The notes below the pieces were generated by a model. The model was not told the origin of the DNA and ran no database searches. It saw nothing but the letters and a program-made list of their open reading frames with translations. A DNA stretch of 43,370 nucleotides from a virus, in the IMG/VR virus record IMGVR_UViG_3300031878_000002, positions 1 to 43,370 of that record. One strand, written 5' to 3'. The first letter of the stretch is position 1; every line of letters starts with the position of its first letter. The position numbers and the translations under genes were made by a program. Of this stretch, positions 4,928 to 43,370 are shown one piece after another.

Positions 4928-5200
4928 TCAGCCGAGCGCAGGCGGTGCGCCGTTGCGCGATTCATCGCCGTCCTCTTCATCAGGTTCGAGCAGGTCTTGC
5001 AAGAGCTCGGTCAATTTGTGCAAATCGCCAAAAGCCTGTTGCAAAATGGTTAGAACTGCAGGCGGAAGACTCTGAAACGCCATTTCCACAACTCGCTTGT
5101 TAGCCTGCAAAATTGAGTAGATTGAACCAACGCCCATCGTGACAAGCGTGACAACAAGCACCACGATGACGATCACCAAAACATTCGCTACGTCTGCCAT
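4928..5200 (-). CDS. Small single-helix membrane protein (90 aa)
   Basis: ATG at 5200, with AAGG two bases and GAGG eight bases upstream, is preferred over the frame opening at 5245. The protein starts MADVANVLV, has one strong membrane segment of about 25 residues (VLVIVIVVLVVTLVTMGVGSIY, residues about 7-31), an amphipathic middle with KLTELLQDLL, and a very acidic tail (EPDEEDGDES). Its function is unknown; size and topology would fit a holin-like, spanin-like or superinfection protein, but nothing decides between these. It is the first gene of the leftward operon, nearest the divergent control region. Confidence 0.65.
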   Translation of the reverse strand: MADVANVLVIVIVVLVVTLVTMGVGSIYSILQANKRVVEMAFQSLPPAVLTILQQAFGDLHKLTELLQDLLEPDEEDGDESRNGAPPALG

Positions 5201-5630
5201 AGCCTTATCCTCGCTTTCAATACCTAACTTAGCAAAATCCTTCAAAAATCGGCTTCCAAGCGCCTTTTCACACGCTTAGCCTAAACTGAATACGGCTAAC
5301 CGCCATAGGCGGTTGAAATCGCGTTTTTGAGGCATTCCTGACAAAGCTCGATTAAAGCGGCAAGCCACGCTAAACGTGGCGAGCCTTGTTTGGCGTATGG
5401 GAGGCGGTGTCAAACGCGCGCGGATAAGCGGTCGGTAGTCCGTTTTCAATTTCGCTACAAAGTCATCAGATAGTATTTAATGGTGATTTTGTAGTGAATT
5501 TGAAAACGCCTGTATCCATCGTGCTGCTCGCTGTCTTTAGCTTGTCAGCCGCTTTAGCCTCGTTTCAATTTCTGCTCAGCGCGATAAGTTGTAGATATGA
5601 GAAGCGATTATCAAGTTTGAGCGAACGGCT
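5201..5630. other. Divergent intergenic control region 1
   Basis: This 430-bp stretch between divergent operons has no convincing gene. It contains a 7-bp hairpin with ATA loop (5298-5314), a 6-bp hairpin (5364-5380) and the 68-bp near-palindrome (5441-5508). Downstream of the palindrome, GCTTGTCAG at 5540 begins a 20-bp segment also found after the second palindrome at 21536 with a few substitutions. Confidence 0.7.
5441..5508. promoter_or_regulatory. 68-bp near-palindrome, copy 1 (candidate bidirectional promoter/operator)
   Basis: Arms 5441-5468 and 5481-5508 match as inverted repeats at 24 of 28 positions around a 12-nt AT-rich centre (GATAGTATTTAA). Copy 2 at 21425-21492 has the same core but different outer bases that still pair. 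On the minus strand TTCACT is followed by 17 nt and TACTAT; on the plus strand TTCGCT, 17 nt, TATTTA. It lies 123 bp before the first rightward gene (5631) and upstream of the leftward operon. Alternatives are a regulator binding site or a large RNA hairpin. Confidence 0.6.
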
Positions 5631-16004: not shown

Positions 16005-16873
16005 CCGACAAGCCTAGCACAACGCAGGTCGCTCCGCCTCCGCTTACGCGCTCACAATGGCTCGCTTGTGAGGATAAAGCGCGGAGCGCAGTGATCGCGT
16101 CTATACCTAAGCCTGAAAAGGCGCAATTCGAAGTTGAGCATTTTGCCGCCTATCCGCGCTGGTTAACCATTGCCTTGACAATCGGGTTGCTCGTCGTAGC
16201 AGTCGGCGCGTTGTATGTGAGCGCGGGCAAGCAGCTCGCAGCGGGCGATATCGTGTTGAAATCAGTGATAGCACACACGGATCGCGTGAATGAATTTTGG
16301 GTCTCAACAGGATTGATCGTCCTTGTGGTGATGGGCGAGATAGGCGCGTTGACTTTTGGGCTCAGTGCGGGCTTGTTAGCCCAAACGCGGACGGCAAAGC
16401 GCGTCTTCCGCGCTTTCATGGTGATGAGCGCGGCGATTGCCCTGCTCGCCAACATATCCATGACGGCGTCTTACCCTCAAAACGAGGTGATCGTCTTTCA
16501 ATGGTTCATCACCATCCTAGCGCCTTCGCTTGTGCTAGGAGTCGGTTTTGTTTTCGAGAACTTGCTGCTGCAAGAGCTTGAAAAGCGAGCGGCGCGCATT
16601 AGGGCGTTCAATGACGCCGTGCAATTCTACCATGCCGTGCTGCGCGACCCTAAGACTGCTCTGCCTGAACGCTATCAAAGCGAGCTTGTCTACGCCGTCG
16701 GCGAGGCGTTGCGCGACAATTGCAAGACGGCTGACGGCAAGAGAGGTCACCTTTACAAGCGGTATCTAGCGCAGATTGAAGCCGATCCACGCTTTGAATA
16801 TCAGTGCATAGCAGCGGAATTTGACCGCCATATGGTGTCGTTCAAGGATTTTCTGCAAGCGCGCCCTATGTGA
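16001..16873 (+). CDS. Four-helix integral membrane protein (290 aa)
   Basis: ATG at 16001 overlaps the methyltransferase stop by 4 bp. A soluble N-terminus of about 50 residues is followed by four hydrophobic helices near residues 53-75 (WLTIALTIGLLVVAVGALY), 100-128, 133-153 and 160-184, then a charged cytoplasmic-looking C-terminal domain of about 100 residues (ELEKRAARIRAF onward). The family is not recognised. Placement inside the replication operon, followed by the palindrome-array gene, suggests a membrane anchor for replication or a takeover role, but this is inference. Confidence 0.65.
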   Translation: MTDKPSTTQVAPPPLTRSQWLACEDKARSAVIASIPKPEKAQFEVEHFAAYPRWLTIALTIGLLVVAVGALYVSAGKQLAAGDIVLKSVIAHTDRVNEFWVSTGLIVLVVMGEIGALTFGLSAGLLAQTRTAKRVFRAFMVMSAAIALLANISMTASYPQNEVIVFQWFITILAPSLVLGVGFVFENLLLQELEKRAARIRAFNDAVQFYHAVLRDPKTALPERYQSELVYAVGEALRDNCKTADGKRGHLYKRYLAQIEADPRFEYQCIAAEFDRHMVSFKDFLQARPM

Positions 16874-17331
16874 CGCCGAGCCTGCTTAGCAATAGGCTCG
16901 GCGTGACGGACGGTCAAACGGTAGAGAAATCGGTAGCCAAAGTGATTGAGGATGTCTTACATGACATCAAACAAGCGTTACGCGATGAAATTTCACAAGC
17001 TGCGCATGAAATTTCAAGGACGCAGACTGAAATTTCACAGCGAGGCGATGAAATTTCACGTCATGAAATTGAAATTTCAGCAGGCGGCAAGCGCGGCAAA
17101 GGCGTAGGCTATGGCAGGCGTAAGACGGATCGGCAAGACGGGACTGAAATTTCAAGTGAAATTTCATCTGAAATCGCTGAGCAGCCTAAGCCGCTCAATG
17201 CTAAGGCGATCGCGGCTATCCTGCGCCGCAAGCCTGAGCTGCTCAAAATGCGCGGCAAGGATTTGGCGGCAAGATTTGGCGTCACGCCGGTCGTCATCAC
17301 TAGGGCGAGGAAGTTAGTGGCTCATGGCTAA
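16870..17331 (+). CDS. Putative DNA-binding protein carrying an internal palindrome array (153 aa)
   Basis: GTG start at 16870 overlaps the previous stop by 4 bp. The middle of the protein repeats Glu-Ile-Ser at 7-residue steps starting at residue 40 (EIS five times, twice more later), each encoded by GAA ATT TCA after a codon ending in T, creating TGAAATTTCA palindromes. A basic linker (GGKRGKGVGYGRRKTDR) follows, then a C-terminal helix-turn-helix-like segment (MRGKDLAARFGVTPVVITRARKL). The heptad spacing would allow a coiled coil. It resembles lambda O in concept: a replication or regulatory protein whose gene holds its own binding sites. No homolog recognised. Confidence 0.6.
   Translation: MTPSLLSNRLGVTDGQTVEKSVAKVIEDVLHDIKQALRDEISQAAHEISRTQTEISQRGDEISRHEIEISAGGKRGKGVGYGRRKTDRQDGTEISSEISSEIAEQPKPLNAKAIAAILRRKPELLKMRGKDLAARFGVTPVVITRARKLVAHG
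16986..17178. repeat. Array of TGAAATTTCA palindromes (candidate origin iterons or operator)
   Basis: Perfect copies start at 16986, 17007, 17028, 17049 and 17070 (exact 21-bp steps) and at 17145 and 17157 (12-bp step). A half copy, TGAAAT, follows at 17169, again 12 bp on, and a partial TGAAATT is at 17064. The 10-mer is its own reverse complement. All lie in the coding region of 16870-17331. Confidence 0.85.
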
Positions 17332-18028
17332 GCGCCTGTTCGAAAGCCCGTCCTTGTTCCAAGAATTCATGGACAAGCCCTTCAATAGGGACGAGCAGCC
17401 GCTCGACTTCTATCTAGAGCGGTTCAAGGCGCTTGTCAAAAGCATCGCCAATCAGTACCTCGATTTGGCTGAAAAGGCGGCTTATAGCTTTGAAGATTTG
17501 ACGCAAATCGGTTATGAGACTCTGCAGAGAGCGTATTGGCGGTTCGATCCCGATCGAAAGCGGCGCAATCGAGAGAGCGGTTCGATCGGGCATTTCTTCT
17601 CATATGTCAGGCAGTCGATCATACGCTCAATTGAGCGAGAGGTGTTCGCCGCCGTCGGGTTGCCTAGCAGCTACCGCGCGCAGCGCACGCCCGACATCAA
17701 GCCTGTCTCGCAGCTGAGTCTGGAAAGGCTTGATGACGACGGCGTGATACCTGCACAGCTAGTTGACAATACATCGCTTGAAGAGGAGACAATAAAACTA
17801 GAAACAAACAAAGAACAGCTTTCACTCATCCTTGAGAATCTATACATTCTAGACAACGCTGAGCGATTCGTAGTTGAGAGCATGATGAACGGAATACCGC
17901 TTGAGGAGATCGAAGGCGATTTCCAAAACGGACAATCTGAGAGCGCCAAAGCCGTGTTCAGACGTGCAGTTGCCAAACTTCGAAAAGCAATTCAAAAGAG
18001 GAGTCGAGACAATGTATATCGAAAATGA
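17324..18028 (+). CDS. Sigma70-family-like RNA polymerase sigma factor 1 (234 aa)
   Basis: ATG at 17324 overlaps the preceding gene by 8 bp. The N-terminal half matches sigma region 2: ANQYLDLAEKAAYSFEDLTQIGYETLQRAYWRFDP, then GHFFSYVRQSIIRSIERE, the helix that binds the core enzyme and the -10 element. The C-terminal 70 residues have a region 4-like helix pattern (AERFVVESMMNGIPLEEIEGDF, AVFRRAVAKLRKAI). Length is typical of small alternative sigma factors. It would redirect host RNA polymerase to phage promoters, possibly those in the 68-bp palindromes. A second sigma-like gene follows immediately. Confidence 0.75.
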   Translation: MAKRLFESPSLFQEFMDKPFNRDEQPLDFYLERFKALVKSIANQYLDLAEKAAYSFEDLTQIGYETLQRAYWRFDPDRKRRNRESGSIGHFFSYVRQSIIRSIEREVFAAVGLPSSYRAQRTPDIKPVSQLSLERLDDDGVIPAQLVDNTSLEEETIKLETNKEQLSLILENLYILDNAERFVVESMMNGIPLEEIEGDFQNGQSESAKAVFRRAVAKLRKAIQKRSRDNVYRK

Positions 18029-18791
18029 GCGTTTCAATGCGCCATACAATCCGCGTGATGAGAAGGCTGACCCTATCGCAGCCTTTGAATTCAAGTGTCG
18101 GCAAGCGGCGACGCGAAACGCTTACGGAGACCGCTATCTTTTTGACGACCTGCTACAGACTGCATACGAGACCGTGCTAATCTGCGCTAAGCGATTCGAA
18201 CCGTCTAAAGCAGGCGGCGATACCTATCGCCATTTTTACAGCTACACATCCGCAGCCATTGACCACAACGTCCGCGACGCCGCGATCCGATTCGGCAGCC
18301 AAACAAAGCCGATTCTTGAGCAAGCCTCAGACAAAAGAGTCGGTCGGACGCCTGAACAAGATGCCGGCAAGCCAAAAAAACAACGCGGCAAGCGGCGTGT
18401 TGAGTTCATATCTGATGAGGTCTTAGACCTTCATCCCGATCCCGCTCCTACCCCAGAATCCGCGCTAGAAATCAAAAACCGTGATGAGAAAATCAAGGCG
18501 CTGCTCAAGATCGCGTTAGACGCCTTAGACGAGCGCCTGCGCTTTATAGTCGAAGCTCGATTTGGGCTTGAAACTGGCGAACCTATTGACGGAGCGGCGT
18601 TAGTGGCGCGCTATGAAGCTCGCTTTGGTGAAAAGCCGACTAAGTTGAATACGATGTACAAACGCGCTTTTCGCAAGATGCGCGCTGCATTAGAAAGGGC
18701 GGGCTATGCCGCAAAGTCGGAAGCGATCGCCGAACTCTTCGGAATCAGAACCCGTCGAGATAGTGTTCGAAACAGAACTCGACGTAGCTAA
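18012..18791 (+). CDS. Sigma70-family-like RNA polymerase sigma factor 2 (259 aa)
   Basis: The ATG at 18012 has GAGGAG eight bases upstream and overlaps the first sigma-like gene by 17 bp; the frame is open from 17901 without a better site. Region 2-like: FDDLLQTAYETVLICAKRFEPSKAGGDTYRHFYSYTSAAIDHNVRD. A charged linker (PKKQRGKRRVEF) precedes a region 4-like end: KIALDALDERLRFIVEARFGLE followed by TKLNTMYKRAFRKMRAALERAGY. It is a distant relative of its neighbour with the same layout, so the two may be duplicated and specialised, or act as a pair. Confidence 0.7.
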   Translation: MYIENERFNAPYNPRDEKADPIAAFEFKCRQAATRNAYGDRYLFDDLLQTAYETVLICAKRFEPSKAGGDTYRHFYSYTSAAIDHNVRDAAIRFGSQTKPILEQASDKRVGRTPEQDAGKPKKQRGKRRVEFISDEVLDLHPDPAPTPESALEIKNRDEKIKALLKIALDALDERLRFIVEARFGLETGEPIDGAALVARYEARFGEKPTKLNTMYKRAFRKMRAALERAGYAAKSEAIAELFGIRTRRDSVRNRTRRS

Positions 18792-20608: not shown

Positions 20609-20932
20609 TTAGCTTTGGATATCCTCAGGAAGTTCACCCGTCTCCAAAATGCGCTTCAGCACGCCGCCAATGTAGTCTAAGAGCAGTTCAGAGACGTATA
20701 AAAATTCGGCGAGATAAAGACCTAAGATAGCCTCGCTGCCCAGAGCGGCAAGCTCCTCCTTCGATAGCCCGTGTTTGCGGATTGCCAATTCCATAAAGGC
20801 TGTGAACTTTTCATCAACGAGGCTTTCGACCGATTCCTGAAGCTCTAAATCCTCAAGGATTGAAGCGACAGCTATCGACACTAAAAGGCACTGCTCTTCT
20901 GCGCTGAGCCGTTCGAACTTATGTTTACCCAT
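20609..20932 (-). CDS. Unknown 107-aa helical acidic protein, lone leftward gene
   Basis: The ATG at 20932 has GGAGG eight bases upstream and is preferred over the frame opening at 20950. The protein starts MGKHKFERLSAEEQCLL and is strongly helical and acidic (SILEDLELQESVESLVDE, HGLSKEELAALGSEAILGLYLAEFLYVSELLLDYI). No motif recognised; a SKEELAALG helix-turn could be part of a small helical regulator. It is the only leftward gene between the two rightward operons and faces the second palindrome region, like the leftward operon faces the first, so it may be driven from that palindrome. Confidence 0.7.
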   Translation of the reverse strand: MGKHKFERLSAEEQCLLVSIAVASILEDLELQESVESLVDEKFTAFMELAIRKHGLSKEELAALGSEAILGLYLAEFLYVSELLLDYIGGVLKRILETGELPEDIQS

Positions 20933-21424
20933 CTGCACATCCTCCCACACTCAAAAGTAGGTCAACGCCGCCAATCGAGACATTTGCCAAAACGCTATTT
21001 TTGAGGCTTTCTGAAGGTTTTTGAGTTAAAGGTATAATGAATAGGAGAAGCATTGTTCGAAAGTCTTCCTGCCCGATTTTTGAAGCATTTTGATACGCTA
21101 CGCAACTAAACGACGGTCTCGAAAAAAGAGAGACCGTTCCTCAGCCTGCCTTCTTCACTTCAATCGCTGCTTAGCACAATTGAGCGCGGCAATCGGCGCT
21201 AGGCAAGGCTTGCCTGAGCTCAACCGCTCAAAGCGAGACCTATCATGCCCAGCGCCGCTTAGCGACTCCCTGCGACTGAAAGCTGGGTCATGCGGCTTAA
21301 GCAGTGACAGGCAAGGCGGTCTAGGTAAGTAGCGCGCTAAGTGCGGCTGACCGAACTTGAGTGATTATATAACTTAGCAGGTTTTGAAGATACCCTAAGA
21401 ATGCCGACCAGCACTGGGAGCGGC
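20933..21424. other. Non-coding stretch upstream of palindrome copy 2 (possible structured RNA)
   Basis: About 490 bp without a convincing gene. On the plus strand a perfect TATAAT lies at 21034-21039, without a good -35. Downstream are a hairpin with 8-bp stem (21113-21120 with 21130-21137) and short inverted repeats such as AGGCAAG/CTTGCCT near 21200. An 80-codon frame at 21090-21332 has basic, serine- and leucine-rich low-complexity translation and no ribosome site. A short non-coding RNA is possible. Confidence 0.4.
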
Positions 21425-21492
21425 GATTTTCAAATTCACTACAAAGCCACCAGATAATATTTAATGGTGACTTTGTAGTGAAATTGAAAATC
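21425..21492. promoter_or_regulatory. 68-bp near-palindrome, copy 2 (candidate bidirectional promoter/operator)
   Basis: Arms 21425-21452 and 21465-21492 match as inverted repeats at 26 of 28 positions around GATAATATTTAA. Outer bases GA/TC replace CG/CG of copy 1 while keeping complementarity. Minus strand: TTCACT, 17 nt, TATTAT. Plus strand: TTCACT, 17 nt, TATTTA. It lies 127 bp before the first structural-operon gene (21619). From 21536 a GCTTGTCAG-led segment resembling 5540-5559 follows. Between 21493 and 21618 I see no gene. Confidence 0.65.
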
Positions 21493-21618
21493 CGCTATCC
21501 GCTACCTCCCTCGCTATGGCTTCCGCTATGGGATTGCTTGTCAGGCGGCTTAGGCGGCTAAGTTGCGCGCGCCTGCTCTCCGCTGCGCTTGCTAAGTTGC
21601 CTTCAGAGGATATAGCGT

Positions 21619-25464: not shown

Positions 25465-25496
25465 GGCTTCTCTCATCATTCTCTCATCTAAGGTGC

Positions 25497-25524
25497 TTGA
25501 CAATGGCTTGAAGTGTGCTATCCT
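25497..25524 (+). promoter_or_regulatory. Sigma70-like promoter for the moron gene 25594-25986
   Basis: TTGACA (25497-25502), 16-nt spacer, TATCCT (25519-25524). The predicted start near 25531 gives a leader of about 60 nt containing repeated AAGAGC units (CAAGAGCTGCAAGAGCAAC). It stands inside the late operon and precedes a single gene followed by terminators. Confidence 0.7.
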
Positions 25525-25593
25525 TTCCATAGCTAAGCAGCAAGAGCTGCAAGAGCAACAAGAGCAACTAGGGAAATAAGGAAGGGAATAACC

Positions 25594-25986: not shown

Positions 25987-25991
25987 TCCTC

Positions 25992-26017
25992 AGCGCCCGA
26001 AAGGGCGCTTTTTATTT
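25992..26017 (+). terminator. Rho-independent terminator 1 after the moron
   Basis: AGCGCCC, GAAA tetraloop, GGGCGCT (25992-26009), then TTTTATTT. It lies 6 bp after the stop of 25594-25986. Confidence 0.9.
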
Positions 26018-26026
26018 CAGTCAACT

Positions 26027-26050
26027 AAGACCGCGCAGGCGGTCTTTTTT
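26027..26050 (+). terminator. Rho-independent terminator 2 after the moron
   Basis: AAGACCGC, GCAG loop, GCGGTCTT (26027-26046), then TTTT. It follows the first terminator by 9 bp, giving a double stop before the capsid gene. Confidence 0.9.
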
Positions 26051-26099
26051 GTTCCTTCTCACAAGTGCTTTGCTAAGTTCGCTATAGAGGAGAGGCGTT

Positions 26100-34162: not shown

Positions 34163-34169
34163 GGGAGTG

Positions 34170-35108
34170 ATGAACGAAGGGTTGCTAGACGCTTTGAAAC
34201 GCCGATCTGAGACAAGCGAGACGTTTCGTGAAATCGCCGCCAGATTCGGAGTCAACCCTAACACACTCCGCCGCCGCGCGCAGCGCCTAAACCTTCACAC
34301 TCCTCGACCACCTGCTAAGACCCGACGCATTGTTGTCTTGAGCGATATTCACGCCCGTCCAAGCTGGGAAATCCTAGAAAAGGCAATCGCGCTTAATCCC
34401 AATATCGTCATTTTGGCAGGCGACCTGTTCGATGGGCAACAGGCGAATCCACATGAAAGCGATTTGAAGTTCAGGGCGCGGACTTTGGCAGAAGAAAGCA
34501 AGGCGTTAGAGCGTTTCATGCGTAAGTTGTTAGCGGAGACGGACGCGGCTATCAAGGTCATCAGAGGCAATCATGATGATTGGTTCAGCCGCCTTTTGGG
34601 CAGACAGGTAGCTCGCGATTTTCATCCGTATGTGATTGACCCTTTAGAGGCGCTTCTAAAACGCATGAACGACGACCGCCTAACGCTTGTCAAGCAACCG
34701 TTTCGCTATAGGCAAGGCGATTGGATTGAGGAGCTCGCCGAATCGCGCTACTGTTGGATTGAAGGAGACGCTTTCATCAGCCATATGAACTTTGGCGGCA
34801 AATGGGCGGGCGACGCCGTCAAGAAACTTTACGAATTCTACTTAAAATGGCAACACACACTAGGCTTGTCTTTACGCCTTTTCATACAAGCGCACGGGCA
34901 TAAACAAGCGCTGCTCTACCATGACGGCGGCAATGTGCTGTTAGCGGAGATCGGGGCGTGCGCAAAACCGAGCGTGGAGTCGTACAAATTGGCGCAGCGG
35001 GCAGGCGGCTCTCCGATGGTACAGGGCGGCTGCACTTTTGAGCAGGCGCTTAGCAACGGCAAATGGCGTACCCTTTTAGGGTCGTTCAGATTTCTAGACT
35101 TGTTATAG
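34170..35108 (+). CDS. Metallophosphoesterase with N-terminal helix-turn-helix
   Basis: A 312-aa protein. ATG at 34170 has GAGG five bases upstream; a GTG directly before it is too close to the site. Residues about 18-40 are a helix-turn-helix (TFREIAARFGVNPNTLRRRAQRL). A calcineurin-like metal site follows: SDIH (D59, H61), GDLFD (D85, D88), GNHDD (N134, H135, D136), then ISHM and AHGHKQ. The last histidine of the usual GHxH is replaced by K-Q, though the set is otherwise complete. Such enzymes hydrolyse phosphoesters of nucleotides or nucleic acids. It sits between tape measure and hub, so it is an accessory gene in the tail operon. Confidence 0.85.
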   Translation: MNEGLLDALKRRSETSETFREIAARFGVNPNTLRRRAQRLNLHTPRPPAKTRRIVVLSDIHARPSWEILEKAIALNPNIVILAGDLFDGQQANPHESDLKFRARTLAEESKALERFMRKLLAETDAAIKVIRGNHDDWFSRLLGRQVARDFHPYVIDPLEALLKRMNDDRLTLVKQPFRYRQGDWIEELAESRYCWIEGDAFISHMNFGGKWAGDAVKKLYEFYLKWQHTLGLSLRLFIQAHGHKQALLYHDGGNVLLAEIGACAKPSVESYKLAQRAGGSPMVQGGCTFEQALSNGKWRTLLGSFRFLDLL

Positions 35109-42998: not shown

Positions 42999-43370
42999 TC
43001 ACCTCACAATGCCTCTCTCAGAGTGCGTTTTTACTCTGATATAATACGTCATCCAACTATCCTTTTCAAACGAGACGAAAACAACGGGTCTGTACCATGA
43101 ATAGACCAGACCTACTCTATTAAATCCCCAAGAAATGAACCTGTTCGCACGCGCAATGTCTACGGGACTCAGTTCAAATAGGGCGATTGGGAAATCGCGA
43201 AGAACCCTCTCAAAACCGTTCGCGATTAGCGTTCCACGAACAACTTGGAGGCGTTCGAATGCTATGAACCATCCCAAATCCGTGCTGGATTGGCATCCTA
43301 TATTAGGCATCGGTGGAGCGGATAGGGTGCAGAATCGGTATGGGCGGCAGGCGTGGTTAACTTTCAAAAT
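42999..43370 (-). CDS. C-terminal part of the junction-spanning unknown protein (paralog of 175-726)
   Basis: Continuation of the gene that starts at 164. In its frame the first codons read ILKVNHACRPYRFCTL and it ends EDSWMTYYIRVKTHSERGIVR (stop at 42999). It aligns with residues of the 175-726 protein after VSFHDN: ILRVNHDPYAY, then LRDFPxAxFEL, VDIARANRF, VYSWYRP. Inserting one base at the junction gives a 178-aa protein, close to the 183 aa of the paralog. A TTG at 43367 exists but has no ribosome site, so an independent start is unlikely. Confidence 0.8.
   Translation of the reverse strand: MLKVNHACRPYRFCTLSAPPMPNIGCQSSTDLGWFIAFERLQVVRGTLIANGFERVLRDFPIALFELSPVDIARANRFISWGFNRVGLVYSWYRPVVFVSFEKDSWMTYYIRVKTHSERGIVR

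Follow-up and report, generated by a model that had tools for sequence, protein, structure and literature searches.

Both head-to-head gene boundaries of an uncultivated tailed phage carry one copy of an imperfect 64-bp palindrome, whose two arms are nearly invariant and always occur together at a fixed spacing. The phage was analysed as IMG/VR virus record IMGVR_UViG_3300031878_000002, positions 1-43,370, and this whole stretch of 43,370 nucleotides is referred to as the window. A role of the palindrome in transcription in both directions is likely, because it is placed at both divergent gene boundaries. As to the kind of element, we give about an even chance to a control site in double-stranded DNA, i.e., an operator or upstream activating site, through which a symmetric regulator acts on both divergent operons.

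According to Pfam and PHROGs, the window encodes a helicase, a PolA-type polymerase, a terminase, a portal-MuF fusion, a capsid protein and ThyX. No GenBank phage matched it at the DNA level, and only remote matches to portal and polymerase were obtained. Distant relatives sought via portal and terminase gave terminase matches of only 21-37%, with synteny limited to a portal fragment and with no long palindrome. Two closer relatives were found, 3300002920_000041, which is near-complete like the window, and the partial record 3300031980_000006. The former begins inside the right end of the window and runs on into the left end. Since it reads across the end junction, the map appears to be circularly permuted and the genome nearly complete, and it therefore seems that the genome has no divergent boundaries other than these two. 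Together the two divergent gaps comprise approximately 2.6% of it. The ends of the record, 1-182 and 42999-43370, carry fragments of a paralogue of gene 175-726.

Compared in direct orientation, the window copies share 89% identity (Table 1). The two-arm pattern matched twice in the window and never in 100 shuffles, and the element is the strongest palindrome of the window, far beyond chance. The centres of the arms are 44 bp apart, approximately four helical turns, which places the arms on roughly the same face of the helix. The distance from the palindrome end to the start codon on the plus strand is 124, 128, 123, 116 and 115 nt in the five copies known from the window and its relatives.

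Table 1. Positions in the window of the palindrome copies, their parts, the flanking motifs and the sigma-like genes.
Feature	Position	Strand	Remarks
Palindrome copy 1	5443-5506	.	24/32 dyad positions matched; head-to-head boundary 1, gap 4928-5200(-)/5631-6002(+)
Copy 1 left arm	5443-5462	+	consensus TTTTCAATTTCACTACAAAG, single G at position 12
Copy 1 right arm	5487-5506	-	consensus TTTTCAATTTCACTACAAAG on the minus strand
Copy 1 12-bp A/T-rich centre	5469-5480	.	GATAGTATTTAA; contains the -10 candidates of the preliminary description
Palindrome copy 2	21427-21490	.	27/32 dyad positions matched; head-to-head boundary 2, gap 20609-20932(-)/21619-22461(+)
Copy 2 left arm	21427-21446	+	
Copy 2 right arm	21471-21490	-	
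Copy 2 12-bp A/T-rich centre	21453-21464	.	GATAATATTTAA
GCTAAGTT	5226-5233	-	outward-facing, upstream of gene 4928-5200(-)
GATAAGTT	5583-5590	+	outward-facing, upstream of gene 5631(+)
GCTAAGTT followed by TATAAT	21371-21378	-	outward-facing, left of palindrome copy 2
GCTAAGTT	21591-21598	+	outward-facing, upstream of gene 21619(+)
GCTAAGTT/GATAAGTT motif	26072-26079	+	before the capsid gene
Secondary element TTGTCAGCCGCTTTAG	5542-5557	+	approximately 35 nt downstream of palindrome copy 1
Sigma-70-family protein	17324-18028	+	Pfam Sigma70_r2 exactly at cut-off; PHROG_351; regions 2 and 4 recognisable on inspection by eye
Second, more diverged sigma-like protein	18012-18791	+	weak PHROG_351 and Sigma70_r2 matches

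Conservation was assessed over three related phage genomes, comprising in total five palindrome copies and ten arms; it rests on these five copies because only three related phages are known. The window and 3300002920_000041 have exactly two copies each, one per divergent boundary and at equivalent places, while the partial record has a single copy at the place of copy 2. Each of the five copies measures exactly 64 bp. In the arm consensus, 16 of the 20 positions are invariant across the ten arms. Pairwise comparison of the copies, non-orthologous ones included, gives 88-97% identity in the arms, as against 17-77% in the 64-nt flanks of the palindromes. The inner 24 bp are more variable than the arms (identity 0.46-0.92), and the 12-bp centre differs in sequence between copies (GATARTATTTAA, TTAAATATTTAA, TAAATATATTTA) while its A/T richness is kept, at 10-12 of 12 positions in every copy. 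The inner part of copy 1 (5443-5506) is 0.88 identical to window copy 2 as against 0.46 to its ortholog (L007:5596-5659), and this greater closeness suggests sequence exchange between the palindrome copies of the same phage.

Scoring of the three phages with the arm revealed no lone half-sites, the best other site reaching 5.4 bits compared with at least 33 for the true arms. A dyad operator or activator site of a phage regulator is recognised by sequence-conserved inverted half-sites at a fixed spacing and by placement in the promoter gaps of the regulated operons, as well as by a cognate binding protein; the half-sites, and the placement in the divergent gaps, were found here. Outside the window, a search of 2.9 million viral contigs with the two-arm pattern matched the two relatives only, and the scan of 84,980 species genomes gave a sole match, which lies in a Clostridia MAG and is an unrelated GC-rich hairpin arising by chance. 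Nothing additional was found with a variable-gap version of the pattern, and the 18-base pattern of one arm was uninformative, giving at least 120 unspecific matches. A functionless small mobile or REP-like repeat could also be present twice per genome, with sharp ends between unrelated flanks. We consider such a repeat hardly credible here, since the same two positions are kept in the relatives, other copies were missing from the viral contigs and the species genomes, that unrelated hairpin apart, and no target-site duplication was seen.

The preliminary description had proposed that the arms encode mirror-image promoters for phage sigma factors. The letters were as described: copy 2 has TTCACT-17-TATTTA on the plus strand (21435-21463) and TTCACT-17-TATTAT on the minus strand (21482-21454), and copy 1 has TTCGCT-17-TATTTA (plus, 5451-5479) and TTCACT-17-TACTAT (minus, 5498-5470). 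Their identity as promoters was not borne out, the scores being no better than chance. The hexamers lie within a larger palindrome. The mirror image provides no independent evidence, because in a palindrome every motif is found again on the opposite strand, and the paired hexamers follow automatically from the dyad symmetry. The best sigma-70 scores were 7-9 of 12 over the five copies and, for the two in the window, 8-9 of 12. When palindromes were shuffled within arm and centre, at the same composition, 13-69% of them equalled the scores of the window copies on both strands (13% for copy 2); across all five copies the share was 13-99.9%. At the exact positions claimed, the scores out of 12 were 6/8 for copy 1 and 7/9 for copy 2, and 7/9, 7/7 and 5/5 for the three copies of the relatives, the lowest pair belonging to L007 copy 1, where the 17-nt pairing of the hexamers is lost. 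Another pair in the same DNA, TTCAAA-18-GATAAT, scores equally well. Conservation spans the whole 20-bp arm, with TTTTCAA and CAAA, outside both hexamers, among the most conserved bases, while the -10 region is the most variable. A bidirectional sigma-70-type promoter, defined by 7-25 bp between divergent starts, should have hexamers clearly above chance on both strands as well as -10 positions and spacing conserved in orthologues, and neither was found in these copies. Sigma-70 hexamer pairs were rejected as the main cause of conservation, the -10 being loose and the scores matching those of shuffled palindromes.

The place of the palindrome between divergent genes, the two sigma-like genes of the phage and the 9/12 sigma-70 match of TTCACT-17-TATTAT on the minus strand nonetheless suggest a bidirectional promoter whose -10s would overlap in the centre and whose -35s would lie one in each arm, to be read by a host or phage sigma factor. 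In addition, there are many bidirectional promoters with overlapping -10s whose starts lie approximately 18 bp from each other (PMC10268837, PMC12825309). We regard this reading as improbable, in view of scores not above those of shuffled palindromes, the variability of the proposed -10s together with the pairing lost in L007 copy 1, the spread of conservation across the full arm, the equal score of other hexamer pairs and the lack of single one-directional copies in the three phages. Nor would the geometry be new, because overlapping -10s on opposite strands, with start pairs approximately 20 bp apart, resemble those of bidirectional promoters known from E. coli and Salmonella, which likewise lie in pseudo-symmetric DNA between divergent genes and have start pairs usually 18 bp, but also 10 and 23 bp, apart (PMC10268837, PMC12825309). 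Those promoters need symmetry only in or near the -10 and have no invariant arms of 20 bp, whereas the phage palindrome has constrained arms and a loose -10 region. The presence of two phage sigma-like proteins was largely confirmed for the first, while the second is plausible with weaker matches. The structure model of the first (AlphaFold, mean pLDDT 63) retrieved bacterial sigma factors first in PDB, at weak E-values of at least 4.5e-3; that of the second was of low confidence and too poor for a fold search. A dedicated, obligately symmetric bidirectional promoter of these two proteins, firing all operons of the phage, seems to us very improbable. If it were true, each 20-bp arm would be the upstream element and -35 in one direction and initially transcribed DNA in the other, and all phage operons would be driven from just two elements.

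Very strong hairpins are predicted on either strand (z approximately -6 to -12), and the palindrome could thereby act in cis as a long leader-RNA hairpin of the two plus-strand operons, in antitermination, RNase processing or mRNA protection. The near-constant distance to the plus-strand start codon (115-128 nt) and a conserved TATAAC-like block approximately 55 nt upstream of copy 2 would agree with such a leader. We hold it to be rather unlikely, however, as the arm sequence is kept beyond what pairing alone would need, and as covariation does not exceed that of shuffles (two pairs with two-sided changes against a mean of 1.7, from only five sequences). Furthermore, Rfam gave no match at gathering score, no conserved plus-strand promoter was found upstream of copy 1, both strands of copy 2 fold approximately equally well, and no U-run follows the stem. 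Because of this missing U-run the palindrome is not an intrinsic terminator; its A/T-rich stem terminates in GAAAA, and it was absent from the output of the terminator scans. That the letters are kept at both loci, and not the pairing alone, agrees with a protein recognising double-stranded DNA.

A protein could also grip the arms for other purposes. If the palindrome served in replication, recombination, partition or packaging, its arms would bind an initiator or recombinase and the centre would be melted or cut. This is consistent with a conserved A/T-rich centre between fixed inverted arms, with the location of copy 1 at the minimum of the cumulative GC skew at approximately 5 kb, and with the inner parts of the window copies, which are as alike as if they were exchanging. 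Still, we find it unlikely. No recombinase, integrase, protelomerase or partition protein was recognised among the phage proteins scanned, transcription better fits two copies strictly confined to divergent promoter gaps, with a constant distance to start codons, and a stronger candidate for an origin is situated elsewhere, at 16986-17166. Protelomerase telRL sites of the N15 type are palindromes of a length similar to 64 bp. The phage differs from these in having two internal copies, in regulatory gaps of an apparently circularly permuted genome, and a protelomerase target is not supported, no protelomerase having been recognised among the proteins scanned.

The candidate origin is an array of the 10-bp palindrome TGAAATTTCA, mostly at 21-nt spacing, inside gene 16870-17331(+), whose product ends in an HTH-like segment. 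There are 7 copies in the window, and 14 and 10 in the relatives (L139:2025-2621 and L141:1056-1580, respectively). In the three phages, each of the 31 EIS tripeptides is encoded by exactly T.GAA.ATT.TCA, for which the background codon probability is 0.027 each; as the linkers diverge and the EIS codons are identical, the constraint therefore acts on DNA. The array strongly resembles the iterons of lambda-type origins, which lie inside the initiator gene (PMC7466680), and by this analogy it is a candidate replication origin. The idea that the protein of this array also binds the palindrome arms found no support, since only the 7-mer TGAAATT is shared and it is broken by copy variants.

For the control site, a symmetric sequence-specific protein, most likely encoded by the phage and acting as a dimer or a pair of dimers, would grip both 20-bp arms at once, leaving the A/T-rich centre free for bending or melting. 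The complex would then switch or coordinate leftward and rightward transcription from the head-to-head gaps, of which gap 1 leads to the replication, sigma and terminase genes and gap 2 to the virion genes. Control of the leftward side is less certain, because the start codons there are approximately 240 and 494 nt away from the palindromes. Points against a control site are that 64 bp is long for one dimer, that a very stable RNA hairpin would form as well if the element were transcribed, and that no classical repressor or activator was recognised among the phage proteins by Pfam and PHROGs. Sigma-like and HTH-like proteins are present. The product of 34167-35108 combines a calcineurin-like phosphoesterase with a weak match to a helix-turn-helix at the N-terminus, an unusual pairing, and is possibly a DNA-binding protein.

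Short dyad-symmetric activator sites are found at phage late promoters under P2 Ogr and Mu C. These resemble the palindrome in being dyad-symmetric and upstream of phage operons, but are short, unlike the 64-bp element; no homologue of Ogr or Mor/C was recognised in the phage. A precedent for the way in which the proposed control site would act is protein p4 of phi29. This phage dimer has inverted-repeat sites located between promoters A2c/A2b and A3, and on binding them it brings about the change from early to late transcription, repressing one promoter set and activating another (PMC3100819). Its sites are likewise phage inverted repeats with A/T tracts, in an early/late promoter region. They consist, however, of CTTTTT-15-AAAATG in four sites, each shorter than 35 bp (PMC3100819), whereas here a 64-bp dyad with unrelated arms occurs once per gap in two separate gaps. 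The half-sites of p4 are not those of the palindrome, whose arm consensus is TTTTCAATTTCACTACAAAG, and a p4 homologue was not recognised among the phage proteins.

Transcription probably starts within the palindrome or next to it, possibly at the outward-facing GCTAAGTT/GATAAGTT motifs. These flank both palindromes on both sides, mostly 20-50 nt before start codons, and are conserved in the relatives; they are possibly a phage promoter or leader element. GCTAAGTT occurs 7 times where 1.0 is expected (p approximately 1e-4), though it was chosen post hoc and ranks at about 182 among 8-mers. The secondary element has a related form, TTGTCAGGCGGCTTAG, at 21538 and counterparts in the relatives, and a version of it, TTGTCAGsCGsCTT, follows every palindrome at a distance of approximately 35 nt, or 48 nt in window copy 2. 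Both the outward-facing motifs and this element, found post hoc, are taken as leads to the true start sites. A block common to both gaps, TTTTTGAGGCWTTC, lies on the side of the leftward gene (20998-21014 and 5324-5340) and is conserved in the relatives of copy 2. Elsewhere, the gap 25465-25593 holds TTGACA-16-TATCCT, a good host-type promoter stronger than the palindrome hexamers, which is followed, before the capsid gene, by two hairpins resembling intrinsic terminators at approximately 25990-26050.

The exclusive pairing of the arms, with no half-sites, gives clear predictions which separate the operator, promoter and RNA models, and the 64-bp element offers a compact handle for finding its regulator. 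If the palindrome is the control site of both boundaries, nearly all transcription of this phage group would pass through two copies of it.
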